Shown here: one piece after another, positions 4,295 through 32,263 of the stretch
How the letters are laid out: every line of letters begins with the position of its first letter
Numbering within the stretch: position 1 is the stretch's first letter
NCBI GenBank assembly: GCA_019118505.1
Contig: DWYU01000141.1
Location: forward strand, 1-35,823
Direction of reading: 5' to 3'
Source: Candidatus Oscillibacter excrementavium
Lineage (GTDB): Bacteria > Bacillota > Clostridia > Oscillospirales > Oscillospiraceae
DNA length: 35,823 nucleotides
Made by a program: the position numbers and the translations under genes
Notes under the pieces: model-generated
What the model was told of the DNA's origin: nothing
What the model saw: the letters and a program-made list of their open reading frames with translations, nothing else
The model's database searches: none

Positions 4295-4983
4295 ACCTTG
4301 CCTCCTGTCCAGATGTAGCCCATGCCCCGGACCGTTTTGATGTAGGTATGGGAGTCATCCTCGATCTTGGCCCGGAGCCGGTTCATGGTGACGGTGAGGG
4401 TATGGTCGTCGATAAAGTTGCCGCCGCTGTCCCACAGGCGGTCCAGCAGCTGCTGGCGGGTCAGGATCTGACCGGCGTGTTCCGTCAGATACTTGAGGAG
4501 CTTGTACTCATTGGGGGTGATGGCCAGCTTCTCTGTCCCCCGCACGGCTGTCAGGGCCGAAAAATCCAGCGTCAGCCAGCCGTCGCTCCAGCGGTCCGCC
4601 TGGGGGGCGGCCGGGGCGCCGCCCACCCGGCGCAGGGCCACCTCCACCCGCCGCAGCAGGATCTGCATGTTGAAGGGCTTGGTCACATAGTCCTCGGCCC
4701 CCATGTCAAAGCCGCGGAGCACATCCGCCTCCAGGTCGTTGGCGGTGAGAAAGATCACCGGCAGCTCCGGCTGCCGGGCCTTGAACTCCCGGCACAGATC
4801 AAAGCCGTTTCCGTCCGGCAGGTTTACGTCCAGCAGGGCCAGGTCGAAGCGTTCGCCGGAGAGCAGCTGCCGTGCCTTCTGGCAGTTGTAGGCGGCCACG
4901 GTCAGATACCCGGCGCTGTCCAGCTCAAAGCAGAGGCCGGCGCTGAGGGCCAGGTCGTCCTCCAGAACTAAAATCTTTTCCAT
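4291..4983 (-). CDS. Response regulator, OmpR/PhoB family
   Basis: MEKILVLEDDLALSAGLCFELD...LALLDVNLPDGNGFDLC...TANDLEADVLRGFDMGAEDYVTKPF plus winged-helix output domain. ATGA overlap with the kinase. Confidence 0.94.
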   Translation of the reverse strand: MEKILVLEDDLALSAGLCFELDSAGYLTVAAYNCQKARQLLSGERFDLALLDVNLPDGNGFDLCREFKARQPELPVIFLTANDLEADVLRGFDMGAEDYVTKPFNMQILLRRVEVALRRVGGAPAAPQADRWSDGWLTLDFSALTAVRGTEKLAITPNEYKLLKYLTEHAGQILTRQQLLDRLWDSGGNFIDDHTLTVTMNRLRAKIEDDSHTYIKTVRGMGYIWTGGKV

Positions 4984-5163
4984 GTGCGGTTCTCCCATCT
5001 CCCGGGCGGCGCTCTCCCACGCACGCGGACGGCCCCGCCCCAACTCATCTCAGTGTTCGATTATAGCGCATATGCGGGCCATTGCCAACAGGAGAATCTG
5101 ATGCGCGGCGCCGCCCTCCCGGACCTTCTGTGGGGCAGTTTTGTTTCAATTTTTCAGATTTGG

Positions 5164-5192
5164 TTGACAGATCACAGCAAATGGACCATAAT
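5164..5192 (+). promoter_or_regulatory. Sigma-A type promoter upstream of sepF
   Basis: TTGACA (5164-5169), 17 bp spacer, CATAAT (5187-5192). Confidence 0.65.
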
Positions 5193-5261
5193 AGATATGA
5201 TATAGGAGGATTTCCCCCTGAAATCGGTACCGTTTTGTTTGTGTGGATGCGAGGTGATCAC

Positions 5262-5726
5262 ATGAGGCTGTTGGAATCCGTGCGGAAAATCGTCTCTTCC
5301 CATCTGAATCCGGAGGATCTGCCTGAGGGCCGGGAGACTGTGGGCCCGGAGGGAGAGTCCCGGTCTGCGCGTTCAGGCGCCGCCTCCGGCTGGGGCCCGT
5401 CCAAGATCGTGCTGCAGGCCCCCCAGCGGCTGGAGCAGACGGAAGAGGTCGTGGACCTCCTCCAGAGCGGCAGCTCCGTGGTGCTGAATCTGCAGGGCGG
5501 CAATTATGAAATCTCCCGGCGGCTGCTGGATTTTGTGGCCGGAGTCGCGTATCACAACGAGAACAAGGTGTGGAAGGTCGCCCGCAACACGTTTCTGATC
5601 GTCCCCTATGACGCCGAGGTGCAGGCCATGGACTTCCCACAATACGGCAGCTTCGGCAGAGGGGACCTCTCACGCGCCGCCGGATTCCCCTCCGGGCGCC
5701 CGGAACCGCGGCAGTGGACCAGCTGA
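5262..5726 (+). CDS. sepF: Cell division protein SepF
   Basis: MRLLESVRKIVSSHLNPEDL...KIVLQAPQRLEQTEEVVDLLQSGSSVVLNLQGGNYEISRRLLDFVAGVAYHNENKVWKVARNTFLIVPYDAEV matches the SepF core fold. RBS 'gaggtgatcac' before ATG 5262. Confidence 0.85.
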   Translation: MRLLESVRKIVSSHLNPEDLPEGRETVGPEGESRSARSGAASGWGPSKIVLQAPQRLEQTEEVVDLLQSGSSVVLNLQGGNYEISRRLLDFVAGVAYHNENKVWKVARNTFLIVPYDAEVQAMDFPQYGSFGRGDLSRAAGFPSGRPEPRQWTS

Positions 5727-5784
5727 ACCAGCCCGGTCTGCGGCGGGGCGCTCCGGCGCCTGTCTGAACCGAATACTGAAAAAA

Positions 5785-5820
5785 CAGGGAGCGGACCGCG
5801 TTGTCCGCTCCCTGTCTGGA
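5785..5820. terminator. Hairpin terminator, probably bidirectional, between convergent genes
   Basis: CAGGGAGCGGAC-cgcgtt-GTCCGCTCCCTG preceded by AAAAAA. Confidence 0.65.
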
Positions 5821-5846
5821 TTCTGCCCGGATACGGCCGGGGCCGC

Positions 5847-7775
5847 TCATCTGGCCCGGCGGTCGTTGGCGGGGTCCTGATAGTAGGCCTGCTTTTCGGC
5901 GTACATCCGCTTTTCCGCGGTCTTGATCAGCCCCTCCACATCGTCAGTGGGCACATGTGCCCAGGCGCAGCCGGCGGACACGAAATACCCCTTTCTCTTC
6001 AGGGTCTCCGTCAGTTCCCGCAGGCGCCTCTCCGTGTCCTCCACAGGCGCGTCGCACACGAAGATAATGAACTCATCGCCGCCCACCCGATAGGTATAGC
6101 GGCTGCCGAAGCAGGTGCGCAGCGCGTCCGCCACCGAGCGGAGCATCTGGTCCCCGGCCTCGTGGCCCTGGGAGTTGTTCAGCTCGTGGAGGCCGTTGAC
6201 ATCCACAAAGACACAGCCGAGGCTGTCCTGGCATTTCGCGGCCAGGTTGGGCAGGTCGATCTCATAGCGGTTGCGGTTGTACAGCCCGGTGAGGGTATCT
6301 CCCTCCCCCAGCCGCTGCATGTCCCGATAGGTCCGGGTGTTGCTGTAGAGCATGGCGAAGCTGAAGCCGACGCTTCGGAGCATCGCCGTGCTGCCCGCGC
6401 GTCTTTTCAGTCCGCCGGCGGACAGGACCCCGCGGATCACACCGTCGGCATCCTCAATGGGGATGGCCGCCAGATCGGTCATGTCCTCCGGCGCATCGGG
6501 CAGCACGGCCCGGACCTCCGCGGCCGTATGGGCGCTGACCTCCGGGTGCCCGGCGGCAAAGTAGTCCGCCAGCAGCTCCGCGCTCTCCCCCAACGCAGTG
6601 CCCAGCGATGTCTCTCCGCCCTCTTCCCACAGATAGCGGACGAGGGGCTCCCTGCCGCTCATCATCGTAAACGCCACCCGCTTTGCCGGAAGCATTTTCC
6701 CGATAAGCGCCAGGGCCCTGGGCACGTTTTCCCGGTGCACATGGGCGTTGAACAGCAGTTTCTCCACGTCGTAAATGTCCCGGAGCGCGTCCAGCTGCCG
6801 CTGCTTTTCGCCGGTCTCCCGGCGCACGTAGCGGATGAGCCAGAGGATGTAGAGCAAAAATCCCACGGCCTCCAGGACCAGCAGCACGTTCAGCATGTTC
6901 CGCACGCTCCGCGCGTCCGCGAAGACCACGGACTCCGGCACGCTCAGCGCCACCCGCCACTGGTTGATGGAGGTGGGCGTGTAATAGAAGTACAGATAGT
7001 CGCCGATGGTGTTGGAGAGAAACACCACGTAGTTGCTCTCTCCGTTGATCAGCCCCTGGCGGAGCTGGGCGTCATCATAGCCGTCGGCCATGGGGCGGGA
7101 GCCGGTCTCCCAGATGTTGCCCAGCTCCTCGTGCCAGGTGTCGATGAGAAAGTCGCCGGTGGCCCCGTCGATCAGATAGACCGCCGCGCTGCCGCCATAG
7201 GGAGAATACGGCAGCGCCTCCCCCAGCGTATCGATGTCGATCACGCCATACAGCATGGCGATGGTCTCGCCGTCCCGGGTCACCGGCACGAAATGGCGCA
7301 CCACATAGCCTCCGCCATTCAGGTCCTGCTCCCGGTCGGAGATATGGGCGCCCAGGGCGGCCTCCTGTTCAAAGGAGAGCTGCCCCGCCGCCGGGACCAC
7401 CTTTCCCTCCGCTGTCAGCACGCGGTCCCCGGGAAGCAGGAACTCCAGCCGGGAGAAAAAGTCCCCGCCGCCGGGATACTGGGCCAGGAAGTCCAGCAGC
7501 TCACCGGACCCCCGGGTCATATAGCCGCTGGCCAGTGTGGCGATCAGCTCCAGCTGGCGGCGGTCAGAAGCCATATTCAGTTCCAGAACGCTGACGAACT
7601 CCTCCGCCTCGCTGGTGAGGCGCTGGAAGCCGGCTGACTCCTCCCGTTCATTGATGCGGGTCGTGACAACAACGCTTACCAGCGCAATCAGCAGGACGAG
7701 AATCAAGGTCGCAGCCACCGGGCTGCGCCAATGTACCGTGTGAACGCGCATGTTCCACCCCTTGTTCCCTGTCAA
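5847..7775 (-). CDS. Membrane GGDEF-domain protein (diguanylate cyclase) with extracellular Cache-like sensor and GAF-like linker
   Basis: C-terminal DTLTGLYNRNRYEIDLP...CVFVDVNGLHELNNSQGHEAGDQML...YRVGGDEFIIFV (GGDEF motif). N-terminal TM, long extracellular segment, second TM. Confidence 0.9.
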   Translation of the reverse strand: MTGNKGWNMRVHTVHWRSPVAATLILVLLIALVSVVVTTRINEREESAGFQRLTSEAEEFVSVLELNMASDRRQLELIATLASGYMTRGSGELLDFLAQYPGGGDFFSRLEFLLPGDRVLTAEGKVVPAAGQLSFEQEAALGAHISDREQDLNGGGYVVRHFVPVTRDGETIAMLYGVIDIDTLGEALPYSPYGGSAAVYLIDGATGDFLIDTWHEELGNIWETGSRPMADGYDDAQLRQGLINGESNYVVFLSNTIGDYLYFYYTPTSINQWRVALSVPESVVFADARSVRNMLNVLLVLEAVGFLLYILWLIRYVRRETGEKQRQLDALRDIYDVEKLLFNAHVHRENVPRALALIGKMLPAKRVAFTMMSGREPLVRYLWEEGGETSLGTALGESAELLADYFAAGHPEVSAHTAAEVRAVLPDAPEDMTDLAAIPIEDADGVIRGVLSAGGLKRRAGSTAMLRSVGFSFAMLYSNTRTYRDMQRLGEGDTLTGLYNRNRYEIDLPNLAAKCQDSLGCVFVDVNGLHELNNSQGHEAGDQMLRSVADALRTCFGSRYTYRVGGDEFIIFVCDAPVEDTERRLRELTETLKRKGYFVSAGCAWAHVPTDDVEGLIKTAEKRMYAEKQAYYQDPANDRRAR

Positions 7776-7903
7776 AATCCAAATGTTGTCTATATTTTAC
7801 AAAATCCATGGGAACTCGTCAAGATGACATCTCCGGGGAAAGGCCCCGGGATGCCCCGCCGGTTGGGCAGCTGGTCTGCCCGGCTGGTAACCCCAAAAAA
7901 TAG

Positions 7904-7932
7904 TTGCGTCCGCTACTTTTTTGTGGTATCAT
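7904..7932 (+). promoter_or_regulatory. Promoter of the marR-MFS operon with overlapping dyad operator
   Basis: TTGCGT (7904-7909), 17 bp, TATCAT (7927-7932). Dyad AGT-t-GCG-tc-CGC-t-ACT at 7902-7917 covers the -35. Confidence 0.6.
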
Positions 7933-7964
7933 AGGCAAAATGACGCCAAAAGGAGCATCTGCAT

Positions 7965-8447
7965 GTGATGGAGTCTTTTTCCAATTTGGGCCGCTATGTG
8001 TCGATCTGCGACCGGCTGATGAAGATGTACTATGACCGCGGCCTCTCCGAATTCGAGATCGGCTGGGGCCAGCAGTTCTATGTGGAGTACCTCTATGACC
8101 ATCCCGGCGCCTCACCGCAGGAGATGGTGTCCTGTATCCACGTGGATAAGGCGACGCTGACGAAGATCATCAAGAAGCTGACGGAGGTCGGCTACCTGCA
8201 GGTCACCAGCGACGGCAAGGACCGGCGTGTCAAGCATTTATACCTGACAGAGAAGGCGATCCCGGCGGCCATGCGGATCAAGCAGATCCACGCCGCGTTT
8301 TACGAGGTCCTCAGCGCGGGGATCCCGCCGGAGGAACTGGCCCTGACCGAGCGGACGCTCCAGCGTATGGCGGATAACATCCACCATACGGTTTGGCACA
8401 GAATGGAGGAACACCATGGAAGCAAGCGAACTCTCGCAGCTGACTGA
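7965..8447 (+). CDS. MarR family transcriptional regulator
   Basis: About 160 aa winged-helix protein: HPGASPQEMVSCIHVDKATLTKIIKKLTEVGYLQVTSDGKDRRVKHLYLTEKA. Followed by an overlapping MFS gene. Confidence 0.9.
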   Translation: MMESFSNLGRYVSICDRLMKMYYDRGLSEFEIGWGQQFYVEYLYDHPGASPQEMVSCIHVDKATLTKIIKKLTEVGYLQVTSDGKDRRVKHLYLTEKAIPAAMRIKQIHAAFYEVLSAGIPPEELALTERTLQRMADNIHHTVWHRMEEHHGSKRTLAAD

Positions 8448-9831
8448 CCGGAAACGGACCCTGATTTTCATCAATCTGGTGGTCTCCGGCATCGCCACAT
8501 CGATCCTGTCCACCGCCATGACCACCGCGCTGCCCAATCTGGCGGCGGATTTCGGCGTCTCCACCGCGGTGGGACAGTGGGTCACCAGCGGCTATTCCCT
8601 GGCCATGGGTATGGTCATGCCGCTGACCGCCTTTCTCATCACCCGCTTTCCCACCAAAAAACTGTATATGACCGGCATCGGCTGCTTCATCGCGGGCATC
8701 CTGCTCAGCATTCTGGGCAGCAGCTTTGCCCTGATGATGGTGGGCCGGGTCCTGCAGGCCTGCGGCAACGGCGTGCTGCTGTCGGCGGCCCAGGTGGTGA
8801 TCCTGACGGTCTATCCGCTGGAGAGGCGGGGGGCCATGATGGGCACCTACGGCCTGGCCACCACGGCGGCCCCCATCATCGCCCCCACTCTGGCCGGGCT
8901 GATGATCGACGCCTTCGGCTGGAAGTCCATCTTCTGCCTGGTGCTGGTCATCATGGTCCTCTCTTTCATCCTCTCCTGGGCCGCCTTTGCGGATGTGCTG
9001 GAGCTTCAGGACAAGAAATTCGATGGGCTCTCCTTTATAGAGAGCATCTTCGCCTTCGGCGGCATCACCCTGGGTATCGGTAACCTCAGCGGCTATGGGC
9101 TGGTGAGCGTCCAGGCGGGGCTGCCGCTGGCGGTGGGCGCTGTGGTCTGCGTGCTGTTCGTCCTCCGGCAGCGGAGGCTGGAAAAGCCCTTCCTGGACGT
9201 GAAGATCCTGCGCAGCTGGAACTACGCGGTGAGCGTTCTGTCCAGCATGGTGCTCTATCTGGTGATGATGGGCTCCTCCGTCATGATGCCCCTGTACGTC
9301 CAGAGCGTCATGGGCTATTCCGCCGTCACCTCCGGCCTGGTGACGCTGCCCGGCTCTCTGGCCACCGCCGTCGTCAGCCCCTTTGCCGGGAGGCTGTATG
9401 ACAAAATGGGCATCCGAAAGATCTTTGTGGCGGGGGCCGCCGCGCTGGTGGTCAGCAATGTGGGGATGGCCTTCATCTCCCTGGAGACCCCGCTCTGGGT
9501 GGCGGCCGGCTTCAACGTGATCCGCAACCTCGCCATCGGCAGTCTGATGATGCCGCTGCTGACCTGGGGCACCAGCAGTGTGGACCCGAAAAAGGTGGCG
9601 GACGCCTCCTCCCTGCTGACCTCCTTCCGCACCATCGCCGGGTCCATCGGCTCCGCGGTGTTCGTGGGGATCATGACGGCGGTCAGCGCCGCCTCCGCGG
9701 CGACTTACGGCGACGGCGCCCTGATGCACGGCATGAACGTGTCCTTCCTCTGGATGACTGTGGGGGCGCTGGTGCTGCTGGCCATCTCCCTTTTCGCAGT
9801 CAAAGCCGGCGGCCGCAGACAGAATCCGTGA
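8416..9831 (+). CDS. MFS multidrug transporter (DHA2-type)
   Basis: 471 aa polytopic protein: STAMTTALPNLAADFGVSTAVGQWVTSGYSLAMGMVMPLTAFLITRFPTKKLY...; overlaps the marR 3' end. Confidence 0.92.
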   Translation: MEASELSQLTDRKRTLIFINLVVSGIATSILSTAMTTALPNLAADFGVSTAVGQWVTSGYSLAMGMVMPLTAFLITRFPTKKLYMTGIGCFIAGILLSILGSSFALMMVGRVLQACGNGVLLSAAQVVILTVYPLERRGAMMGTYGLATTAAPIIAPTLAGLMIDAFGWKSIFCLVLVIMVLSFILSWAAFADVLELQDKKFDGLSFIESIFAFGGITLGIGNLSGYGLVSVQAGLPLAVGAVVCVLFVLRQRRLEKPFLDVKILRSWNYAVSVLSSMVLYLVMMGSSVMMPLYVQSVMGYSAVTSGLVTLPGSLATAVVSPFAGRLYDKMGIRKIFVAGAAALVVSNVGMAFISLETPLWVAAGFNVIRNLAIGSLMMPLLTWGTSSVDPKKVADASSLLTSFRTIAGSIGSAVFVGIMTAVSAASAATYGDGALMHGMNVSFLWMTVGALVLLAISLFAVKAGGRRQNP

Positions 9832-16600: not shown

Positions 16601-17437
16601 TTACTCGCTGGTGACATCCGCGCCGAAATACTGCTCCGACAGCTGTGCCAGCTGGCCGGAGGCACACATATCATCCAGGGCCTCGTTGATGGCCTCCACC
16701 AGCCGCTCATTTCCCTTGGGAACGGGGATCTGGGAGGACGTGGTGGTGTCCGTCGCGGCCACGATCTTCACCGGGGCGTCCGGGTGCTTGTTCATATAGT
16801 CGTAGAAGGCGGTCTCCGCATTCAGCATACAGTCCGCCCGGCCGCTTAGAATCAGCTCGATCCCCTCCGCCACGGAGTCCACGCTGACCAGCTCCGCGCC
16901 GCAGCCCTCGGCCTCCTGGCCCCAGCTGCTGGTCAGGTTCTGGGCCGCCCGCTTGCCCTCCAGGGCGTCAAAGCCGGTGATGTCCGTGTTGTCCTCCGCC
17001 ACCAGCAGGGCGCCGTGGACATAGGTGTAGGGCTCGGAGAAGTCGTACTTCACCGCCCGCTCGTCGGAGTACTCCACCTCGTTGACCACGATGTCCACCC
17101 GGCCGGAATCCATGCTGGCGAACAGGGAGTCCCACTCCGCCTCCACGAACTGGATGTCCACCCCCAGGTGGTCCGCCACGCCCCGGGCCACGTCCACGTC
17201 AAAGCCCACCAGGTCGCCGTTCTCATCGTGATAGCTGTTGGGGGAATAGGTGCCCTCCGTGCCCACCACGATGACGCCCGCCTCCTGGATCTTGTCCAGC
17301 AGATCTGTCTCCCCCGGATTGCTGCCCTCCGCGACGTCGTTTCCGCCGTCTGCGTTCGCTCCGTTAGAGCCGCAGCCGGCCATCAGCCCCGCAGTCAGGG
17401 CAAGGGCCGCGAGGACCGCAAGCCATCTCTTTTTCAT
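16601..17437 (-). CDS. Amino-acid (probably cystine) ABC transporter substrate-binding lipoprotein
   Basis: Lipobox LMAGC; VGTEGTYSPNSYHDENGDLVGFDVDVARGVADHLGVDIQFVEAEWDSLFASMDSGRVDIVVNEVEYSDERAVKYDFSEPY is typical of the SBP_bac_3 family. Confidence 0.92.
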   Translation of the reverse strand: MKKRWLAVLAALALTAGLMAGCGSNGANADGGNDVAEGSNPGETDLLDKIQEAGVIVVGTEGTYSPNSYHDENGDLVGFDVDVARGVADHLGVDIQFVEAEWDSLFASMDSGRVDIVVNEVEYSDERAVKYDFSEPYTYVHGALLVAEDNTDITGFDALEGKRAAQNLTSSWGQEAEGCGAELVSVDSVAEGIELILSGRADCMLNAETAFYDYMNKHPDAPVKIVAATDTTTSSQIPVPKGNERLVEAINEALDDMCASGQLAQLSEQYFGADVTSE

Positions 17438-19966: not shown

Positions 19967-20718
19967 CAGCAGGCCCGGACCAGCTCCCCGCTGAGGGTCT
20001 GCAAAAAAGCCCGGGTGCGCGCTTCCCTGGGGTGCTCGAAGAAGGAATAGGAATCCCCGGATTCCACCACGGTGCCGTGCTCCATGAAGATCACCTTGTT
20101 GGACACGTGCCGGGCAAAACCCAGCTCATGGGTCACCACCAGCATGGTCATGCCCTCGTTCGCCAATGTCCGCATGACCGCCAGCACCTCCCCGGTCAGC
20201 TCCGGGTCCAGGGCGGAGGTGGGCTCGTCAAAGTAGATGATCTCCGGTTTCGTGGCAATGGCCCGGGCAATGGCCACCCGCTGCTGCTGGCCGCCGGAGA
20301 GCTGACTGGGGTAGTAGTCCCGGTGGTCCAGCATCCCCACCTTCTCCAGAGCCTGCTCCCCCAGCTCCACGGCCTGGGCCTTCGGCAGCTTTCTGCCGAT
20401 CATCAGCCCCTCCGTCACATTCTGCAAAGCGGTCTTGTTGCGGAACAGGTTGTAGTCCTGAAAGACGAAGCCGGTCTTTTTCCGCAGGCGGACCACATCT
20501 TTTTTTGTGATCTTCTGAAATGGGAGGCTCTCCCCGTCAAAGGTCAGCGTGCCGCCGTCCGCCCGCTCCAGGAAGTTCATGCACCGCAGCAGGGTGGTCT
20601 TTCCGGAGCCGCTGGGGCCCAGGATGGCCACCACATCCCCCTTGTTGACTTGCAAGTCCACGCCTTTGAGGACCTCCAGATCGCCGAAGGACTTTTGGAT
20701 GTTCTTCACTTCCAGCAC
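19966..20718 (-). CDS. Amino-acid ABC transporter ATP-binding protein (TcyC/GlnQ-like)
   Basis: [51 protein letters not shown]...[37 protein letters not shown] 20718 follows 'aaaggaggaggtccc'; ATG 20739 is the alternative. Confidence 0.93.
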   Translation of the reverse strand: MLEVKNIQKSFGDLEVLKGVDLQVNKGDVVAILGPSGSGKTTLLRCMNFLERADGGTLTFDGESLPFQKITKKDVVRLRKKTGFVFQDYNLFRNKTALQNVTEGLMIGRKLPKAQAVELGEQALEKVGMLDHRDYYPSQLSGGQQQRVAIARAIATKPEIIYFDEPTSALDPELTGEVLAVMRTLANEGMTMLVVTHELGFARHVSNKVIFMEHGTVVESGDSYSFFEHPREARTRAFLQTLSGELVRAC

Positions 20719-20731
20719 GGGACCTCCTCCT

Positions 20732-21391
20732 TTATCCATAGACACGCAGCCTCTTCTCTCCCGCCCGCTGGAGCTTGGTCAGCACCGTGCAGAACAGCAG
20801 GTAAATCACGCCCACCTCGATGTACAGGGCCAGGGGCTCCGCCGTCCGGGCCACGATCCGCTCCGTGGCCATGAACATCTCCACCACCGTGATGTTGGAG
20901 GCCAGGGAGGTGTCCTTCACCATGCCGATCAGAGAGTTGGACAGGGGCGGGAACGCGGTCCGCAGGGCCTGGGGCAGCACGATCCGCCGGATGGACTGGC
21001 CCCAGGTCATTCCCGCGCACTCCGCCGCCTCCAGCTGGCCCGGCGGGACGGACTCCAGCGCGGCCCGGATGGTCTCCGCGCAGTAGGCCCCCTGGTTGAT
21101 GGAAAACACGATGACCGCAGCCGGAAAGGCGTCGATCAGAATGCCGATGTGAGGCAGGCCGTAGAACACCACGAACAGCTGCACCAGCAGCGGCGTTCCC
21201 CGGATGACCCAGATATAGAACCGGGCGATCTGCCGGGCCGCCGGCACCCTGGCAAACTGGACCAGGGCCACAGCCACCGCAATGACCAGGGCGATGGAAA
21301 AGGAAATGGCCGTCAGCGGGATGGTCATGGTCAGTCCCGGCAGCAGAATCTGCCAGAAGGACTCCGCCAGCAGGCTCCACAGATGATTCAT
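20732..21391 (-). CDS. Amino-acid ABC transporter permease (TcyB-like)
   Basis: MNHLWSLLAESFWQILLPGLTMTIPLTAISFSIALVIAVAVALVQF...WVIRGTPLLVQLFVVFYGLPHIG...GAYCAETIRAALESVPPGQLEAAECAGMTWGQSIRRIVLPQALRTAFPPLSNSLIGMVKDTSLAS. Confidence 0.94.
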   Translation of the reverse strand: MNHLWSLLAESFWQILLPGLTMTIPLTAISFSIALVIAVAVALVQFARVPAARQIARFYIWVIRGTPLLVQLFVVFYGLPHIGILIDAFPAAVIVFSINQGAYCAETIRAALESVPPGQLEAAECAGMTWGQSIRRIVLPQALRTAFPPLSNSLIGMVKDTSLASNITVVEMFMATERIVARTAEPLALYIEVGVIYLLFCTVLTKLQRAGEKRLRVYG

Positions 21392-22626: not shown

Positions 22627-25600
22627 TCAGGCGTCCATCTGGGCAAACCGCATCAGCATCACGGACAGATGCGCCCGGGTCAGGCTGGCCTGCGAGGCGA
22701 ACGTCCCGTCGGCGCGGCCCTTCACAATACCGGTGGCGGCGCACCAGCTGATGCCCTCCGCATAGGCGTTGGGGATGGTGGCGGCGTCCAGGAACTTGCT
22801 CAGATCCACAGACGGCGTCATGTCCTTCCCCTGGAGCTTGGCGTAGCGGGCCAGGATTGTGGCGAACATGCCCCGGGTCAGGGGCCGGTCAGGCGCAAAC
22901 ACGCTGGCGCTGATGCCCCGCATGATCCCCTGCTGGGCGACCCAGGAGATGGCGTCCCGCTGCTGGCTGCGCTCATCCACGTCGGAGAATTGGGTCGTCA
23001 TGGTGCAGTCCGGCTGGCCGGCCAGGTTGTAGATGGCCTGGGCGGCCTCGGCCCGGGTGATGACCTCGCCGCCGCCGAACACATAGGGCTCCTCGCCGGA
23101 GACCAGCTTGTGCTCCGTCACATAGGCCGCGCCGTCGTAGAACCAGTCGCCGCTGTCCACGTCGGTGTAGTCGGTGACCTTCTTGCCGTCCCGGACGGTG
23201 TTGCGGATCTCATAGGTGTCCACAACCTTCCAGTTGTTCCAGGCATCCATCTCCTCCTTCTCGTCGGTGTCGCTGTCAGCGCACTGGTAGGCGGTGCCGG
23301 TGATGGCGTCCTCGGAGATGGTGATGATGGAGAACACCTGCTGGTCCTCGTCATCCACATAGCAGTCGGTGGCGTAGTCGCTGCGGTCCGGCAGGTACTC
23401 ATAGTACTTGTTGCCCACGGTGCCGCCGGTGATGTAGGTGGTGCCGTCGCCGGTGTTGACCTTGATGTCATTGGCGGCGGTGGCCCGGATGTAGATGTGG
23501 TCGTGGCCGTTCAGGAACAGGTCCACGCCCAGGGCGTCGATGGACCACTCGGAGTCGTTGATGAAGTAGTCAATGACCTCGGAGGCCGGATGATTGGAGG
23601 TGTAGGGGCCGGCGTGGGTCAGCATGACGCGCCACTTCTTGTCGGAGTTCTCGTAGCACTTCTTGGCCCACTGGAGCTGCTTGGCGATGATGTCCGCCTT
23701 CTCCTCCGGCGGCGTCACCTCGGTGTTGATGACCACGATGCAGGCATCGCCGTACTCGATGCAGCCGATGGTGTTGTCGAACTCCGTGCCGCTGCCGCCG
23801 CCGGGCATGTTGAACCGCTGGGCGAAGGAGACGAAGCCCCAGTCGCCCTTCATCTCATGGTTGCCGGGGACGGTGATGGTGGGGATGGTGGCGTAGTAGT
23901 CGCCCATGACCTCGAAGCAGGCCTCCCACTCGGTGGCCTTGTAGCCGTCCTGGGTGGTGTCGCCGCCGCTCATGATGAACTCCGGCGTCACCAGAGTGGT
24001 GGCGTAGTCCATGCTCTTCTTGAAGGACATGTAGTCGTCCGTGGAGACGGACTGGGGATCGGAGACGAAGATGAAGGAGAACTCATCGGCGTCCGGCGAG
24101 GTGGGGGCCTTGAAGGTGTGCTCCTCACTCATGAACTGGCCGCCGTCGCCCACCCGGTAGACGTACATGGCGTCGGGCTCCAGGTCCTTCAGCACCGCCT
24201 GGTGGGTAGCCAGCTCCTTCCAGCCGGGGGTCACGGCATCCACGTAGCTGGTGCCGCGGACGGTCTTCCAGCTGCTCTCCCCCTGCTTTTTGTACTGGAT
24301 CACAGAGTTCTTGACCTCCGGCACGGTGATCCAGCTGAACCGCAGGTTCCCCTGGGTGGTGTCCGGGGTCATGGTGATCTGGCTGGGCTCACCCAGGATG
24401 CTGCCGTCATCCACAAAGACCTGGATGGGGGCCGTCTTGTCATAGGGCTTGGTGAGGGTCTGGCCGTCCGCCTGGATCTCCAGGTAGTAGAACAGGTCGC
24501 CCGCCTTGTCAGAGGGCAGATCCACCGTGCAGGTGGTGCCGGAGACCGTCATGGGCAGCTGCTTGGACAGATCGTCCGCAGTGTAGCCGTAGTGCAGCAC
24601 CGCGCCCGTCACGCTGGAGGCGCCCGCCACACGGGCGGTCACGGTTGCCTTGGCGTTCTGATCCACGTCGTTCACGGCCCGGGAGATGATCCGGGGACCG
24701 TCCATGGTAAAGTCCACCGCCTCAAAGATGGCGAGATCATAGCCCTTCAGGATGGGCTGGCGCAGACTGTCGCTCCAGATCCAGGCATTGTTGAAGTCCC
24801 AGCCCAGGTCCACATAGGTCTGCTTCTGGTGCAGGGCGTCCGCGGAGAGGTCCTCCCACTGGATGGGCTGGAAGGCGGGCTCGTTGCCGGCCAGAAGAGT
24901 GCCCTCCCAGGCGATGTTGCCGGAGATGTTGGTGGCCGCCTCGTCGTCCAGCTGGCCCACGATCTTATCCACGTTCTTGGTGCCGGAGATGGAGGTCTGC
25001 GCGGAGACGCAGCCGACGATCCGGTCGCCGGCGTTGAAGGAACCGGCAATGCCGCCGGCGGAGCCGTTCTCGCCATAGGCGCTGACGGTGCCGGCCGCAA
25101 AGCAGTTGCCCACGAAGCCGCCGCCGTCCTGGATGCCGGCCACGCCGCCCACGTCATAGGGGGCCTCCAGGTCCGCGTTGATGTAGCAGTTCTCCACGTG
25201 GCCGATGATGGGGCCCTCGCCCTCCTTCACCTTTCCGGCGATGCCGCCGCTGGTGTGGGAGTTGGACAGGTCATCCACCCAAACGTGGCCGGTGACCACG
25301 CAGCCGGTAATGGTGCCGTAGGTGACGCCGGCGATGCCGCCCACGTTCTGCTGGCCCCGGATCTCGCAGTTGATCATGGCCACGTTCTTCACATAGGCCT
25401 GGTCATTCTCGTTGCCCACATAGCCGAACAGGCCCACGTACTTCTTGGGGTAGTCGATGGTCAGGTTGCGGATCACATGGTACTGGCCGTCGAAGGTCCC
25501 CAAATAGCCCTCCTCCTTCTCGGAGGCGATGGGCCGGAAGCCCTCCCAGCCGGCCATGTCGATGTCCGCTGTCAGCACATAGTCCCCGTCCCGGGGCGCG

Positions 25601-25806
25601 CCCTCCTTCCAGGTGCCGGAGAGGTACATCAGCTGGGCGGGGGTGCTGATCTCATAGACGTCCTTCGCGGCGTTGTATACAGGCGCCACAGCGTCCTCAG
25701 GCCCCTTTGCCGCCGCTGTCGTCACCAGCAGCGAGGAGGCCATCGCAATACACAGGAGCAGGCTTAACAGCCGTTTTCGGGTCTGCCGGAGGGATCGTCT
25801 ACACAT
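22627..25806 (-). CDS. Secreted, S-layer-anchored metallophosphoesterase (purple-acid-phosphatase-like) with GLUG-like repeats, FN3-like domain and three SLH domains
   Basis: Signal peptide MCRRSLRQTRKRLLSLLLCIAMASSLLVTTAAA; GGIAG-type repeats; metal motifs FVSDPQ, GGDTTQDG, GNHE, LTHAGPY, NGHDHIY; C-terminal SLH units YTDVDSGDWFYDGAAYVTEHKLVSG..., FSDVDERSQQRDAISWVAQQGIMRG..., FLDAATIPNAYAEGISWCAATGIVKGRADGTF.... Confidence 0.92.
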   Translation of the reverse strand: MCRRSLRQTRKRLLSLLLCIAMASSLLVTTAAAKGPEDAVAPVYNAAKDVYEISTPAQLMYLSGTWKEGAPRDGDYVLTADIDMAGWEGFRPIASEKEEGYLGTFDGQYHVIRNLTIDYPKKYVGLFGYVGNENDQAYVKNVAMINCEIRGQQNVGGIAGVTYGTITGCVVTGHVWVDDLSNSHTSGGIAGKVKEGEGPIIGHVENCYINADLEAPYDVGGVAGIQDGGGFVGNCFAAGTVSAYGENGSAGGIAGSFNAGDRIVGCVSAQTSISGTKNVDKIVGQLDDEAATNISGNIAWEGTLLAGNEPAFQPIQWEDLSADALHQKQTYVDLGWDFNNAWIWSDSLRQPILKGYDLAIFEAVDFTMDGPRIISRAVNDVDQNAKATVTARVAGASSVTGAVLHYGYTADDLSKQLPMTVSGTTCTVDLPSDKAGDLFYYLEIQADGQTLTKPYDKTAPIQVFVDDGSILGEPSQITMTPDTTQGNLRFSWITVPEVKNSVIQYKKQGESSWKTVRGTSYVDAVTPGWKELATHQAVLKDLEPDAMYVYRVGDGGQFMSEEHTFKAPTSPDADEFSFIFVSDPQSVSTDDYMSFKKSMDYATTLVTPEFIMSGGDTTQDGYKATEWEACFEVMGDYYATIPTITVPGNHEMKGDWGFVSFAQRFNMPGGGSGTEFDNTIGCIEYGDACIVVINTEVTPPEEKADIIAKQLQWAKKCYENSDKKWRVMLTHAGPYTSNHPASEVIDYFINDSEWSIDALGVDLFLNGHDHIYIRATAANDIKVNTGDGTTYITGGTVGNKYYEYLPDRSDYATDCYVDDEDQQVFSIITISEDAITGTAYQCADSDTDEKEEMDAWNNWKVVDTYEIRNTVRDGKKVTDYTDVDSGDWFYDGAAYVTEHKLVSGEEPYVFGGGEVITRAEAAQAIYNLAGQPDCTMTTQFSDVDERSQQRDAISWVAQQGIMRGISASVFAPDRPLTRGMFATILARYAKLQGKDMTPSVDLSKFLDAATIPNAYAEGISWCAATGIVKGRADGTFASQASLTRAHLSVMLMRFAQMDA

Positions 25807-25854
25807 AAAAATTCCCCTTTCCAAATATTGAATTTTCGCAGATTCCCATTTTTT

Positions 25855-25868
25855 CGAAAACGCTTGCG
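25855..25868. promoter_or_regulatory. LacI-type operator A (SLH phosphoesterase promoter)
   Basis: CGAAAACGCTTGCG, just downstream of the minus-strand promoter TTGATA-17-TATATT (25911-25883). Confidence 0.7.
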
Positions 25869-25882
25869 TATCTGCTATTTTC

Positions 25883-25911
25883 AATATATACCCACTCCGT
25901 CAGAATATCAA
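25883..25911 (-). promoter_or_regulatory. Promoter of the SLH metallophosphoesterase
   Basis: Minus strand TTGATA, 17 bp, TATATT. Confidence 0.55.
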
Positions 25912-26018: not shown

Positions 26019-26032
26019 CGCAAACGTTTTAC
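26019..26032. promoter_or_regulatory. LacI-type operator B (upstream of the SLH phosphoesterase)
   Basis: CGCAAACGTTTTAC. Confidence 0.65.
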
Positions 26033-27531: not shown

Positions 27532-27566
27532 TTGAAAAAAGCGGCTTTCTTTTTTTGTCCGTATTT

Positions 27567-27580
27567 CGAAAACGTTTGCG
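27567..27580. promoter_or_regulatory. LacI-type operator D (PiT 5' region)
   Basis: CGAAAACGTTTGCG, between the promoter and the 'aggaggg' RBS. Confidence 0.75.
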
Positions 27581-27599
27581 ATCAGGAGGGATTTGGTTG

Positions 27600-28616
27600 T
27601 TGTCCACGGTTTCTTTCTGCGTCTTAACGTGTCTGGTCTTTGTCTTTACCTATGTGAACGGCTTCCACGACGGCTGCAATGTGGTGGCAACGCTGATCGC
27701 CAGCCGCGCCATGAAGCCTCATCCGGCCCTGGCCTGGGCGGCCGTCGTGGAATTTCTCTCCCCGCTGGCCATTCTGGTGGTGGGGGCCAGCGTCTCCGGC
27801 ACCATCCAAAAGCTGGTGGGCGAGTCGTTCTACACCGCCCCCGGGACCCAGAGCACGGCCCTGGCCTTCATCACCGCCGGGATCCTGGCCGCGATCGCCT
27901 GGAACCTCACCACCTGGAAGTTCGGGATCCCCGCCTCGTCCTCCCACTCCCTGATCGGCGGCGTGGTGGGAGCCGGGCTGGCCGCCTTTGGAACCGGTGC
28001 CATCGCCTGGTCGTATTTCTGGGGCCGGGTGGTGCTGATGATCTTCCTGACGCCGGCGGTCAGCTTCTGCCTGGGCTTTCTCATCCTGAAGCTGCTGCTG
28101 CGGCTGACCCGCCACGCGGGGGTGGGCGTCAACAAGTTCTTTACATACGCCCAGTGGGTCAACATGACCTTCCTGGCCTTCAACCACTCTTTCAACGACT
28201 CCCAGAAATCCATCGGCATCATCCTGATCCTGATCGGCATCTACGGCGGAGACGTCTCCGGGATCCCCCTCTGGTCGATCCTCTGCGCGGCAGCCTGCCT
28301 GGCCTGCGGCATCGCCTTCGGCGGCTTCAAGATCATCAAGACCGTGGGCACCGGCATCTACAAGGTCCAGCCCATCCACTCCTTCGCCTCCCAGCTCACT
28401 GCCGGGTCCGTGATTCTGGCCTCTTCCCTGCTGGGGGCGCCGGTGTCTGCCAGCCAGATCGTCTCCTCCTCCATCATGGGGGTGGGCGCGGCGGAGCATT
28501 ACAAGTCCGTCCACTGGCTGGTGGCAAAGCGGATCCTCCTCTCCTGGTTCATCACCATCCCCATCGCCGGGGCCCTGGGCGCGCTGCTCTACCTGCTGTT
28601 CTCTCTGATTTTCTAA
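27600..28616 (+). CDS. Inorganic phosphate transporter, PiT family
   Basis: TTG start (27597 or 27600) after 'caggaggg': STVSFCVLTCLVFVFTYVNGFHDGCNVVATLIASRAMKPHPAL...GIPASSSHSLIGGVVGAG...NHSFNDSQKSIGIILI...GAPVSASQIVSSSIMGVGAA. Confidence 0.93.
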   Translation: MSTVSFCVLTCLVFVFTYVNGFHDGCNVVATLIASRAMKPHPALAWAAVVEFLSPLAILVVGASVSGTIQKLVGESFYTAPGTQSTALAFITAGILAAIAWNLTTWKFGIPASSSHSLIGGVVGAGLAAFGTGAIAWSYFWGRVVLMIFLTPAVSFCLGFLILKLLLRLTRHAGVGVNKFFTYAQWVNMTFLAFNHSFNDSQKSIGIILILIGIYGGDVSGIPLWSILCAAACLACGIAFGGFKIIKTVGTGIYKVQPIHSFASQLTAGSVILASSLLGAPVSASQIVSSSIMGVGAAEHYKSVHWLVAKRILLSWFITIPIAGALGALLYLLFSLIF

Positions 28617-28639
28617 TTTGCAAAGGAGGCCTTTCAAAA

Positions 28640-29245
28640 ATGCAAATCCGCAAGCGAAAGGGAAGTCTCAATTTTTACAGTCTGCTGATCCAACAGATGG
28701 AGGTGATCCGGGACGCGGTGGAGGCCCTCTGCCAATACTGCGCGGAGCCCACCCAGGAAAAGGGAGACTTTGTCAAGACCAAGGAGAAGGAGGCAGACGC
28801 CGTCCGCCGGGAGCTGGTGGAGGACATCAACCGCACCTTCATCACCCCCATCGACCGGGAGGACCTGTTCCGCCTGTCCTCCTCCGTGGACGATCTGGCG
28901 GACTACGCCTGGACCACGGTGAAGGAGCTGCGGATCTATGAGATCGAGCCGGACGAGCACCTCCAGCAGATGGCCGGCACCCTGCTGGAAATGGCCAACG
29001 GCCTGCTGGTCTGCATGGAAAATCTGGAGAAGAACCAGGCCAAGGTCTATGAGGAGGCCACCCGGGTCAAGAAGCTGGAAAACACCCTGAACGTCCAGTT
29101 CCACCGGTCCATCGCGGAGCTCTTCTCCTCGGATGACCTGAAGAAGATCCTGAAGTACCGGGAGATCTACAGCCACATGAACCATGCCTCGGACAAGGGG
29201 GATGCCAGTGCCGACATCCTGCTGGATATTATCGTGAAGCTCTGA
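28640..29245 (+). CDS. DUF47 family PhoU-like PiT accessory protein
   Basis: ATG 28640 after 'aaaggaggcctttcaaaa': MQIRKRKGSLNFYSLLIQQMEVIRDAVEALCQYC...KEKEADAVRRELVEDINRTFITPIDREDLFRLSSSVDDLADYAWTTVKEL. Confidence 0.93.
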   Translation: MQIRKRKGSLNFYSLLIQQMEVIRDAVEALCQYCAEPTQEKGDFVKTKEKEADAVRRELVEDINRTFITPIDREDLFRLSSSVDDLADYAWTTVKELRIYEIEPDEHLQQMAGTLLEMANGLLVCMENLEKNQAKVYEEATRVKKLENTLNVQFHRSIAELFSSDDLKKILKYREIYSHMNHASDKGDASADILLDIIVKL

Positions 29246-29319: not shown

Positions 29320-30324
29320 CTATGTCAGCGGGCGGCAGGTCCCGCGCTGGACCAGACTGGGCATCAGAATCTGGTGGACATAGCCCTGGGTCCCCTTTTC
29401 GATCTTGTCCAGCAGCATCTCCACCGCCTGGACGGCCATGTCCTTTTTCGGCTGCTCAATGGTGGTGAGGTCGATGCGCGGCAGCGCAGTGGAGGGGATG
29501 TTGTCAAAGCCGATGAGGGAGAGATCCTCCGGGATACGGATGTGGAGCTCGTCGGCCGCCTTCAGGATGCCCAGCGCGTTGGAGTCCGTGGAGGCGAAGA
29601 TCGCCGTGTAGTCGATGGGCTTTGCGAACAGCTCCTTGGCCAGCTGATAGCCGTTCTCGATGGAGGACCGGGCAAAGTCGCTGTGGTGGATCCGGGGCTC
29701 CAGGCCGAATTGCTGGCAGGCCCGCAGATACCCCTCCGCCCGGAGCTGATGGGTGGTGGAGTTCCGGCAGCCGAAGTACAGGATGTCCCGGTGGCCCAGG
29801 CCGTAGAGGTACTCCACCCCCAGATAGGTGCCCCGGCTGTTGTCCACGGACACATAGCTCTGGGGCTGGTCCCGCAGGTTCTCGCTGAGAAACACCGCGG
29901 GGATCTGCTCCAGCAGCGGGGCGATCTTCTCATAGGTGGCAGGAGACTGGGGGACGATCAGGATGCCGTCCACCCGCCGGCCCAGCAGCAGCTTGAACAC
30001 CATCTCCTCCTGCTTCAAATCCGGCTCCGAGTCGCACAGCATGATGTTGTAGCCCCGGGCCCGGGCGCTCATCTCCACATAGTAGGCCAGCTGGGACATG
30101 AACTCATTTTCAATGGCCGGTACCACCAGCCCCAGGAGATCCGTCTTTTTCATCACCATGGAGCGGGCCACATAGTTCCCCGTATACCCCATCTCGTCGC
30201 ACAGGCGGACGATCCGCTCCCGCGTGCTCTTTCCGATCTGGCTGCTTCCCGACAGAGCCCGGGATACCGTTGCATAAGAGACACCGGCGGCCTTGGCCAC
30301 ATCCTTCAGTGTCACGTTTTTCAT
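29320..30324 (-). CDS. LacI family transcriptional regulator
   Basis: MKNVTLKDVAKAAGVSYATVSRALSGSSQIGKSTRERIVRLCDEMGYTGNYVARSMVMKKTDLLGLVVPAIENEF... plus periplasmic-binding-like effector domain. Upstream in-frame ATG possible. Confidence 0.95.
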   Translation of the reverse strand: MKNVTLKDVAKAAGVSYATVSRALSGSSQIGKSTRERIVRLCDEMGYTGNYVARSMVMKKTDLLGLVVPAIENEFMSQLAYYVEMSARARGYNIMLCDSEPDLKQEEMVFKLLLGRRVDGILIVPQSPATYEKIAPLLEQIPAVFLSENLRDQPQSYVSVDNSRGTYLGVEYLYGLGHRDILYFGCRNSTTHQLRAEGYLRACQQFGLEPRIHHSDFARSSIENGYQLAKELFAKPIDYTAIFASTDSNALGILKAADELHIRIPEDLSLIGFDNIPSTALPRIDLTTIEQPKKDMAVQAVEMLLDKIEKGTQGYVHQILMPSLVQRGTCRPLT

Positions 30325-30369: not shown

Positions 30370-30383
30370 CGTAAACGTTTCCG
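30370..30383. promoter_or_regulatory. LacI-type operator E (upstream of the lacI-family gene)
   Basis: CGTAAACGTTTCCG. Confidence 0.7.
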
Positions 30384-30579: not shown

Positions 30580-30593
30580 CGCAAACGTTTGCA
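30580..30593. promoter_or_regulatory. LacI-type operator F (iPGM-like gene promoter), perfect palindrome
   Basis: GCAAACGTTTGC at 30581-30592. Confidence 0.8.
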
Positions 30594-30645: not shown

Positions 30646-32214
30646 ATGTCTGCATCCAATCACGGCGGCACCCAGCTGGCGGAGGCCGTCCGACAGGCCT
30701 ATGCCGCGGGGCTGGACGACTATCATCTGGAGCCCATGGTGCTGACCGAGCACGGCGCCCCCGTCGGCCGCATCCGGGATCACGACGCGGTGGTCTTCTG
30801 CTGCCGCCGGGGCGAGCGGGAGATCGAGCTGACGGAACTGTTCACGGAGGACGATTTCCAGGCCGTGGAGCGCCGGAAGCTGAAGGATCTGTATTTCGCC
30901 ATCCTGACGCTGTACCACGACAAGTTCAAGCACCTGCCCATCGCCTTTGCCCCGGAGCACGTGGCAAGGCCCCTGGCCCAGGTCCTCTCCGAGGCCGGAA
31001 AAAGCCAGTTCCACTGCGCGGAGTCCGAGAAGTTCGCCCATGTGACCTTTTTCTTCAACGGCGGGGAAAACGCCCCCTTCCCCGGCGAGGAGGATGTGTG
31101 CATCCCCTCTCCCAAGGGCATCGACTTTGACCAGAAGCCGGAGCTGTCCCTGCCGGAGGTGGCCCGGACCGTGACGGACGCCCTGGGGAAATACGACTTT
31201 ATCGTCACCAACTTCGCCAACGGCGACGTCATCGGCCACACCCAGAACACCGCCGCCAAGCTGGAGGCCTGCGGCCACGTCAGCCGGGCCCTGGAGCAGG
31301 TGGTGGAGGCCGCTCTGGCCCGGGACTACGTGGTGGCCGTCACCGCGGACCACGGCAACATCGAAAAGCTGTACACCGCCGCCGGCAAGCCCGACGGCGC
31401 CCACACCACCAATCTGGTGCCCTTTATCCTGATGGACTCCCGCCAGACAGGCCCCATCCCCCTGCGGGACGGCGCCCTCTGCGATGTGGCGCCCACGGTT
31501 TTGGACGTCATGGGGATCCCCCAGCCCCCGGAGATGACGGGCCGCTCCCTGACGGAGAGCCACGCCTGGGGCCAGGGGCGGAAGATGCTCCTCATCATCT
31601 GCGACGGCTGGGGCCTGGGCACCGGCGATGACGGCGATGCCATCCACCTTGCCCACACCCCCTACTGGGATTCCCTTTTGGGAAACCGCTCCTGGTGCCG
31701 CCTGCACGCCTCCGGCGAATACGTGGGCCTGGGGACCGGCAAGGCCGGCAACTCAGAGGCCGGACACTCCAACCTGGGGGCCGGCCGGTGCGTCATGCAG
31801 GACGACGTGCGGCTGGACGCGGCGGTGAAGGACGGCTCCTTCGCCCGCAATCCGGTCTTTCTGGAGGCCATCGAACACGCCAAGCGGAACCACGCCTCCC
31901 TGCATCTTCTGGCCTACCTCACCCACAAATCCTCCCACGGGTGCATCGACTATCCCCTGGCCATCTGCGAGATGGCCAAGAAGCAGGGGCTGGAGGAGGT
32001 CTACTTCCACATCATCTTCGACGGCCGCTCCACCGAACCCGGCTCCGCTCCCGCGCTGCTGGCGGAGCTGGACAGCCGCCTGGACCAGATCGGACTGGGC
32101 CTGATCGTGGACGGCGTGGGCCGGGGCGTGGTCCTGGACCGGGACAAGAATTACGACAAGGTAAAGCGGGCATACGATGCCCTGACAGACGGCCTGGGCG
32201 CCTGTTATTCATAA
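30646..32214 (+). CDS. 2,3-bisphosphoglycerate-independent phosphoglycerate mutase family protein, apparently circularly permuted
   Basis: ATG 30646 after 'gagggaggtcttttg'. First part matches the C-terminal part of canonical GpmI (GLDDYHLEPMVL..., AESEKFAHVTFFFNGGENAPFPGEE, NFANGDVIGHT, TADHGN, AHTTNLVP, APTVLDVMGIPQPPEMTGRSL); second part matches its N-terminal part (KMLLIICDGWGLG, GNSEAGHSNLGAGR, FDGRS, GVGRGVVLDRDKNYDKVKRAYDAL). Confidence 0.92.
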   Translation: MSASNHGGTQLAEAVRQAYAAGLDDYHLEPMVLTEHGAPVGRIRDHDAVVFCCRRGEREIELTELFTEDDFQAVERRKLKDLYFAILTLYHDKFKHLPIAFAPEHVARPLAQVLSEAGKSQFHCAESEKFAHVTFFFNGGENAPFPGEEDVCIPSPKGIDFDQKPELSLPEVARTVTDALGKYDFIVTNFANGDVIGHTQNTAAKLEACGHVSRALEQVVEAALARDYVVAVTADHGNIEKLYTAAGKPDGAHTTNLVPFILMDSRQTGPIPLRDGALCDVAPTVLDVMGIPQPPEMTGRSLTESHAWGQGRKMLLIICDGWGLGTGDDGDAIHLAHTPYWDSLLGNRSWCRLHASGEYVGLGTGKAGNSEAGHSNLGAGRCVMQDDVRLDAAVKDGSFARNPVFLEAIEHAKRNHASLHLLAYLTHKSSHGCIDYPLAICEMAKKQGLEEVYFHIIFDGRSTEPGSAPALLAELDSRLDQIGLGLIVDGVGRGVVLDRDKNYDKVKRAYDALTDGLGACYS

Positions 32215-32226
32215 GCGCCGGCGCTC

Positions 32227-32263
32227 GGCCCGCGCGGGATGCGCTCCTCATCCCGCGCGGGCC
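32227..32263 (+). terminator. Hairpin terminator after the iPGM-like gene
   Basis: GGCCCGCGCGGGATG-cgctcct-CATCCCGCGCGGGCC (15 bp). Confidence 0.65.

Follow-up and report, generated by a model that had tools for sequence, protein, structure and literature searches.

A circularly permuted iPGM paralog family associated with putative organophosphate uptake genes in gut and other anaerobic bacteria

The window, a stretch of 35,823 nucleotides from Candidatus Oscillibacter excrementavium, encodes a circularly permuted paralog of the phosphoglycerate mutase GpmI (iPGM), here called pPGM. Its topology and its membership in the iPGM superfamily are firm, and a new function is likely. pPGM belongs to a distinct clade of permuted iPGMs that originated once, and on balance it probably acts on a multiply phosphorylated, imported small molecule rather than in the glycolytic 3PG/2PG step. 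It is best treated as a separate paralog family within the iPGM superfamily and not as GpmI.

Gene and protein

pPGM is encoded at 30646..32214 on the forward strand (522 amino acids plus stop) by a single ORF with an ATG start and no internal stop, and the assignment is backed by profile matches and colinear homologs. An upstream GGGAGG and the homologs, which all start at most a few residues away, support this start. In a phmmer comparison with Geobacillus iPGM (1ejj), pPGM aligns as two segments in swapped order (E 3e-106), with residues 13-302 corresponding to GpmI 218-508 and residues 314-521 to GpmI 6-213. The two halves are complementary, nothing is duplicated, and the sole uncovered GpmI residues are the four at 214-217. 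A preliminary description of this DNA had reported one uninterrupted 522-residue ORF with its halves exchanged and had located the breakpoint and the linker; the ORF and the phmmer match bear out the former, and the rotated alignment the latter.

The first segment (30682..31551, +), defined by the match to 1ejj and by conservation, holds the remaining transferase domain followed by the phosphatase domain with D403, H407, D444, H445, H462, and K336. It is followed by a new 11-residue linker between the former C and N termini (residues 303-313, 31552..31584, +), which fills the gap between the aligned segments and lies in a block with a pLDDT of 86-88 in the structural model. The last segment (residues 314-522, 31585..32211, +) is equivalent to GpmI 6-213 by alignment and conservation, and carries D12, the nucleophile S62, the SSHG motif, and DGRS with its serine at position 154. 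In the alignment, the break that creates the new chain ends falls within the transferase domain, at canonical residue 213/218, and the linker bridges the old termini. With its complementary swapped halves, joined old termini, and one origin (see below), pPGM is a natural circular permutation.

Profile searches give the same picture, as the matches to Pfam Metalloenzyme and iPGM_N and to NCBIfam TIGR01307 fall on swapped stretches. The TIGR01307 total of 453 bits lies above the cut-off of 331, but is the sum of two out-of-order stretches. The domain order of GpmI proper (N-terminal phosphatase part, transferase, C-terminal phosphatase part) is not found in pPGM, which does possess the phosphatase and transferase domains, Ser62, and the two-metal ligand set of the iPGM superfamily. 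After rotation, pPGM is about 41% identical to the canonical GpmI of its own genome and likewise to Geobacillus iPGM, whereas these two share 59% identity. An AlphaFold2 model built from 27 permuted sequences has a pLDDT of 89.9 and a pTM of 0.82; all 22 PDB matches in Foldseek at E <= 0.001 are iPGMs, each spanning only part of the model since Foldseek depends on chain order.

The stop codon is followed by a GC-rich hairpin (32227..32263, +; -38.2 kcal/mol, z -4.49, 0 of 200 shuffles as stable). A hairpin terminator had been proposed here; the hairpin stands, but its T run is weak.

Distribution and phylogeny

At least 60 proteins beyond the window's own share the permuted order, as was found when proteins of this order were sought in genomes. 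Two genome searches gave a first set of 49 full-length, colinear permuted proteins, the window's included, with 57-85% identity to the latter. A search of the class added one protein and a search of the phylum 11 (10 full length, one partial); the latter are 37-42% identical and form a deeper group 2. One further, more divergent permuted protein occurs in Chloroflexota. In terms of genomes, the family was present in 7 of 301 (own genome included), in one more among 388 of the class sample, and in 11 of the phylum sample. The complete 6.35-Mb chromosome of [Clostridium] asparagiforme DSM 15981 encodes two permuted copies in addition to a canonical GpmI, and contributes one protein to the first set. 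Other hosts are Oscillibacter, Dysosmobacter, Erysipelotrichaceae, and Anaerolineaceae or other Chloroflexota.

In a tree on the rotated alignment, all permuted sequences lie on one side of a branch with an SH-aLRT of 100 and divide into two groups (SH-aLRT 99 each). The single clade indicates one permutation event before the spread through Bacillota and Chloroflexota, and the patchy occurrence of the gene suggests that it was probably transferred between lineages. A phage or plasmid origin was considered and rejected: plasmid and phage matches are all below 60% identity, those listed fall in two pieces, as the canonical order gives, and a scan of viral contigs with the family alignment found no permuted protein. 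Four proteins (L079-L082), the most distant relatives in the genome scan, proved to have the canonical order.

The more divergent protein from Chloroflexota (L155:3208-4830) marks a third permuted branch; its motifs read YDLRGERE and GRRG, and its neighborhood shows no importer or HAD match.

Active site

The pocket was compared between 60 permuted sequences (50 from group 1, 10 from group 2) and 27 canonical ones. D12, S62, H123, R153, R185, R191, R261, R264, K336, D403, H407, D444, H445, and H462 are invariant in both. Because the two-metal phosphatase site with its Ser62 nucleophile is kept, pPGM would be expected to form a phosphoserine intermediate.

The transferase domain is different near the substrate. 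Position 154, an aspartate in 27 of 27 canonical sequences, is serine in all 60 permuted ones (D154 in none); in Geobacillus iPGM, this aspartate is the proposed general base. The GVHS and NFRPDRA motifs, near-invariant among the 27 canonical sequences, are likewise replaced in 60/60: G121-V122-S124 becomes S-S-G (SSHG), and NFRPDRA becomes CRRG[ED]RE through N259-F260 to C-R, P262 to G, and A265 to E. E231 is changed to tyrosine, again in every permuted sequence, and position 120 is lysine in 48 of 49 group-1 proteins. The transferase-pocket signature of GpmI proper (Asp154, GVHS, RD, NFRPDRA) is not present in pPGM. The earlier claim that all expected ligand motifs are present holds for the phosphatase domain, whose metal and serine set is complete, but not for the transferase pocket. 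One negative charge is lost with Asp154 and one or two positive charges are gained with Arg260 and, in the gut group, Lys120; this net change suggests a substrate with an extra phosphate.

Canonical mutase in the same genomes

The own genome also contains a canonical gpmI in a pgk-tpi-gpmI cluster, beside ORFs identified from their sequence as phosphoglycerate kinase-like and triosephosphate isomerase-like. Among 18 further genomes searched, a canonical-type GpmI match accompanies the permuted protein in 15. In the groundwater Chloroflexi genome G308, an ApgM-type mutase directly follows pPGM, and in three group-2 genomes (f134) the GpmI search gave no match over the cut-off. pPGM is not the housekeeping mutase.

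Operators and proposed regulon

A LacI-type operator, GCAAACGTTTGC (30581..30592), lies 54 bp upstream of the pPGM start. A second, GTAAACGTTTCC (30371..30382), follows at a distance of 210 bp, upstream of a LacI-family regulator gene (29323..30324, -; Pfam LacI and Peripla_BP_3, 61% to an Oscillibacter LacI probe) that is divergent from pPGM. Such operator pairs, spaced 208-221 bp apart (mean 211), occur in 27 LacI-divergent loci including that of the window, a spacing that would suit looping by the repressor.

The operator AAACGTTT occurs five times in the window against 0.11 expected. In a slightly relaxed form it occurs at 10 sites in the 2.53-Mb genome, five on the window's contig (C27) and three on another (C12). 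These two contigs make up 1.7% of the genome and hold 8 of the 10 sites (binomial 3e-13, an optimistic value since the pattern was shaped on these sites). In the window, the sites precede LacI and pPGM, a phosphate transporter with its partner, and a phosphatase-like gene. The PiT/PHO4 transporter (27555..28613, +; Pfam PHO4 E 9e-77) has an operator at 27568-27579 and its true start probably near 27594; its PhoU-like (DUF47) partner follows at 28634..29245 (+; PhoU_div E 5e-20). The third gene encodes a predicted secreted, S-layer-anchored purple acid phosphatase-like protein of 1085 residues (22630..25884, -; Pur_ac_phosph_N, Metallophos, and three SLH domains in Pfam), with an operator at 26020-26031. 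This operator lies about 140 bp upstream of the gene, whose product may act at the surface as a phytase or phosphoesterase and has, close to the N terminus, a region with weak similarity to a putative IgA1 protease of known structure (3n6z). Another ABC importer nearby, of the amino-acid type (SBP_bac_3; 16604-17437 and 19969-21391), is apparently unrelated.

On C12, the sites precede a HAD (haloacid dehalogenase) gene and an importer. C12 probably follows the window in the genome, as a relative (L033) has LacI, pPGM, two ABC exporters, a reversed HAD, a small membrane protein, and a binding protein in a row. The ninth site, on C92, is close to a second LacI and to genes for a split transketolase and an ADH, both of which relatives have in their pPGM operon; the tenth (C19) has no obvious meaning. 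The second LacI paralog at L151 (C92, about 4647-9208) shares the same operator and stands beside the split transketolase and Fe-ADH. Operators and gene order, on which this reading of the regulon rests, point to a LacI repressor that would place pPGM under joint control with the surface phosphatase, the phosphate transporter, HAD hydrolases, and an ABC importer of the organophosphate type.

Gene neighborhoods of relatives

In Oscillibacter and Dysosmobacter, the usual order begins with a PfkB-type kinase, a PHP-domain-like protein, and divergent LacI, continues with as many as five HADs in tandem and then pPGM, and often ends with IolG (inositol 2-dehydrogenase), split transketolase, and Fe-ADH. 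In several Chloroflexota, pPGM stands between three HADs and an ABC importer, and one more HAD comes after the latter. In Erysipelotrichaceae and [Clostridium] asparagiforme, the genes near pPGM encode a binding protein, two ABC ATPases, and a double permease. Within the fetched flanks of the 49 first-set group-1 loci, HADs occur in 41 and the importer in 15; only the short locus of the own genome (L001) has neither, and there both are on C12. The PDB matches of the importer's binding protein include the pyridoxal-phosphate binder 6wce and 4r72 (AfuA, a hexose-phosphate binder). The importer subunits resemble the PhnS2/T2/U2 models, all with scores below the curated cut-offs.

The HADs have DxG instead of DxD as motif I in 10 of 10 checked (FDLGGTL, FDVGNTL, LDLGGTF; L036:2789-5881, L037:3654-4382, L060:3719-5984, L093:67-840 and 6145-6876), and may not perform ordinary phosphatase chemistry. 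IolG scores above its curated cut-off directly downstream of pPGM in Dysosmobacter (435 bits) and in the groundwater Chloroflexi cluster of G308 (430 bits); it is present in 6 of the 49 first-set group-1 loci, and the own genome has only a relative of it below the cut-off.

In group 2a, the operon runs GntR, cyclic 2,3-diphosphoglycerate synthetase (cDPGS), binding protein, permease, ATPase, pPGM, and the cDPGS homolog matches 8ork with E 1e-133. Such bacterial cDPGS homologs with importer and permuted PGM are seen at L123, L124, L128, L130, and L132. cDPGS is absent from the own genome and from every searched genome with a group-1 protein. In group 2b (G836, G764, G865), pPGM lies beside rapZ-like and csp-like genes, and an adjacent importer of the kind seen in pPGM clusters is absent.

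Proposed function and alternatives

The order of the sequence, its ligands and pocket changes, the gene order, and the operators are compatible with the following pathway and direction. An extracellular organophosphate would be trimmed at the surface, imported, and processed inside by the HADs and pPGM, and PiT would take care of the phosphate set free. With the help of two metal ions, pPGM would phosphorylate its own Ser62, and the phosphoserine would then either be hydrolyzed or pass its phosphate to another position. The enzyme would thereby take phosphoryl groups off a multiply phosphorylated small molecule or shift them within it. Sugar or polyol phosphates of other kinds have an even chance of being the substrate; inositol phosphates are a possible but doubtful candidate, and 2,3-diphosphoglycerate (from cyclic 2,3-DPG) is a rather unlikely one. 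The fuller proposal is held tentatively: an undescribed permutation of a glycolytic enzyme may have given rise to a new phosphoserine phosphotransferase or phosphatase for bis- or polyphosphorylated substrates (inositol phosphates or 2,3-diphosphoglycerate) within an organophosphate-scavenging pathway that is widespread among gut and anaerobic bacteria, its gene now likely annotated as gpmI.

Several observations speak against the preferred reading. The DxG HADs of the cluster may not be ordinary phosphatases, the inositol and 2,3-DPG leads stem from different branches and disagree, and the group-2b neighbors are rapZ-like and csp-like genes with no such importer adjoining. Additionally, the phosphoglycerate pocket retains all of Arg153, Arg185, Arg191, Arg261, and Arg264, so that pPGM may still bind phosphoglycerate, and the adjoining ApgM-type mutase in the groundwater genome also fits a phosphoglycerate-related step.

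The kept arginines, together with the metal ligands, Ser62, and a TIGR01307 total over the curated cut-off, would suit a second, permuted, ordinary phosphoglycerate mutase that serves as a backup or conditionally expressed glycolytic isozyme. This is unlikely in view of the invariant Asp154 to Ser exchange with its block of pocket changes, the canonical GpmI in the own genome and most others, and a gene order of organophosphate uptake and not glycolysis. The ordinary mutase function implied by the preliminary description is not supported by the same evidence (the pocket, the canonical GpmI, and the regulon).

A role in phosphonate metabolism, like that of PhpG (a phosphonoformyl transferase of the iPGM superfamily), is improbable. 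It would account for the resemblance of the importer to PhnS2/T2/U2, for PhpG as a weak NCBIfam match of pPGM, and for the missing DxD acid of the cluster HADs, which phosphonatases lack as well. However, the PhnS2/T2/U2 and PhpG scores are all under the curated cut-offs, and the neighborhoods are without any known phosphonate-degrading enzyme. The loss of the canonical Asp154 could also point to a catalytically reduced regulator or phosphate-ester sensor, but 60/60 proteins from two phyla keep the nucleophile and the full set of metal ligands unchanged, which makes this very improbable. An assembly artifact or frameshifted pseudogene has a negligible probability even though the sequence comes from a draft assembly in 184 contigs, since the same order is strongly conserved in isolates, in dozens of independent assemblies, and twice in the complete 6.35-Mb chromosome, which refutes misassembly and upholds the earlier dismissal of a frameshift.

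Comparison with known systems

pPGM shares with GpmI (TIGR01307; 1ejj, 1o98) both domains, the fold, Ser62, D12, D403, H407, D444, H445, H462, and the arginines 153, 185, 191, 261, and 264. It differs in the permutation at 213/218, D154S, the changes of GVHS to SSHG and NFRPDRA to CRRG[ED]RE, its coexistence with a canonical GpmI, and its organophosphate regulon. As its TIGR01307 total is above the NCBI naming cut-off, genomes with pPGM are probably annotated with an extra gpmI. No description of a permuted iPGM was found in the open-access literature searched, which misses most subscription papers; none had been known to the author of the preliminary description either.

ApgM-type mutases and PhpG (TIGR00306, NF038358) share the core of the alkaline-phosphatase superfamily with pPGM, and PhpG shows that an iPGM relative can acquire a different reaction. 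Their models, however, match pPGM only weakly and partially, and in G308 a gene of its own beside pPGM encodes ApgM.

With the cyclic 2,3-diphosphoglycerate system of methanogens (cDPGS, 8ork/8oru), the group-2a operons share a strong cDPGS homolog, whereas the searched group-1 genomes have none. Cyclic 2,3-diphosphoglycerate has been described as exclusive to hyperthermophilic methanogens (PMC10690619), and phosphoglycerate mutase is not mentioned in the cDPGS papers PMC10690619 and PMC12136491.

Features in common with inositol and phytate degradation in the gut are IolG beside pPGM in two distant lineages and the operator shared by the phosphate transporter and the purple acid phosphatase of the surface. 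The gut papers PMC12482443 and PMC7618129 make no mention of either phosphoglycerate mutases or haloacid dehalogenases. Enzymes of central metabolism are rarely circularly permuted in nature. With a single origin, an occurrence in two phyla, and a rebuilt active site, pPGM links a change of topology to what is likely a change of function, and its regulon suggests an undescribed route of organic-phosphate harvesting in gut Oscillospiraceae, [Clostridium] asparagiforme, rumen Chloroflexota, and others.
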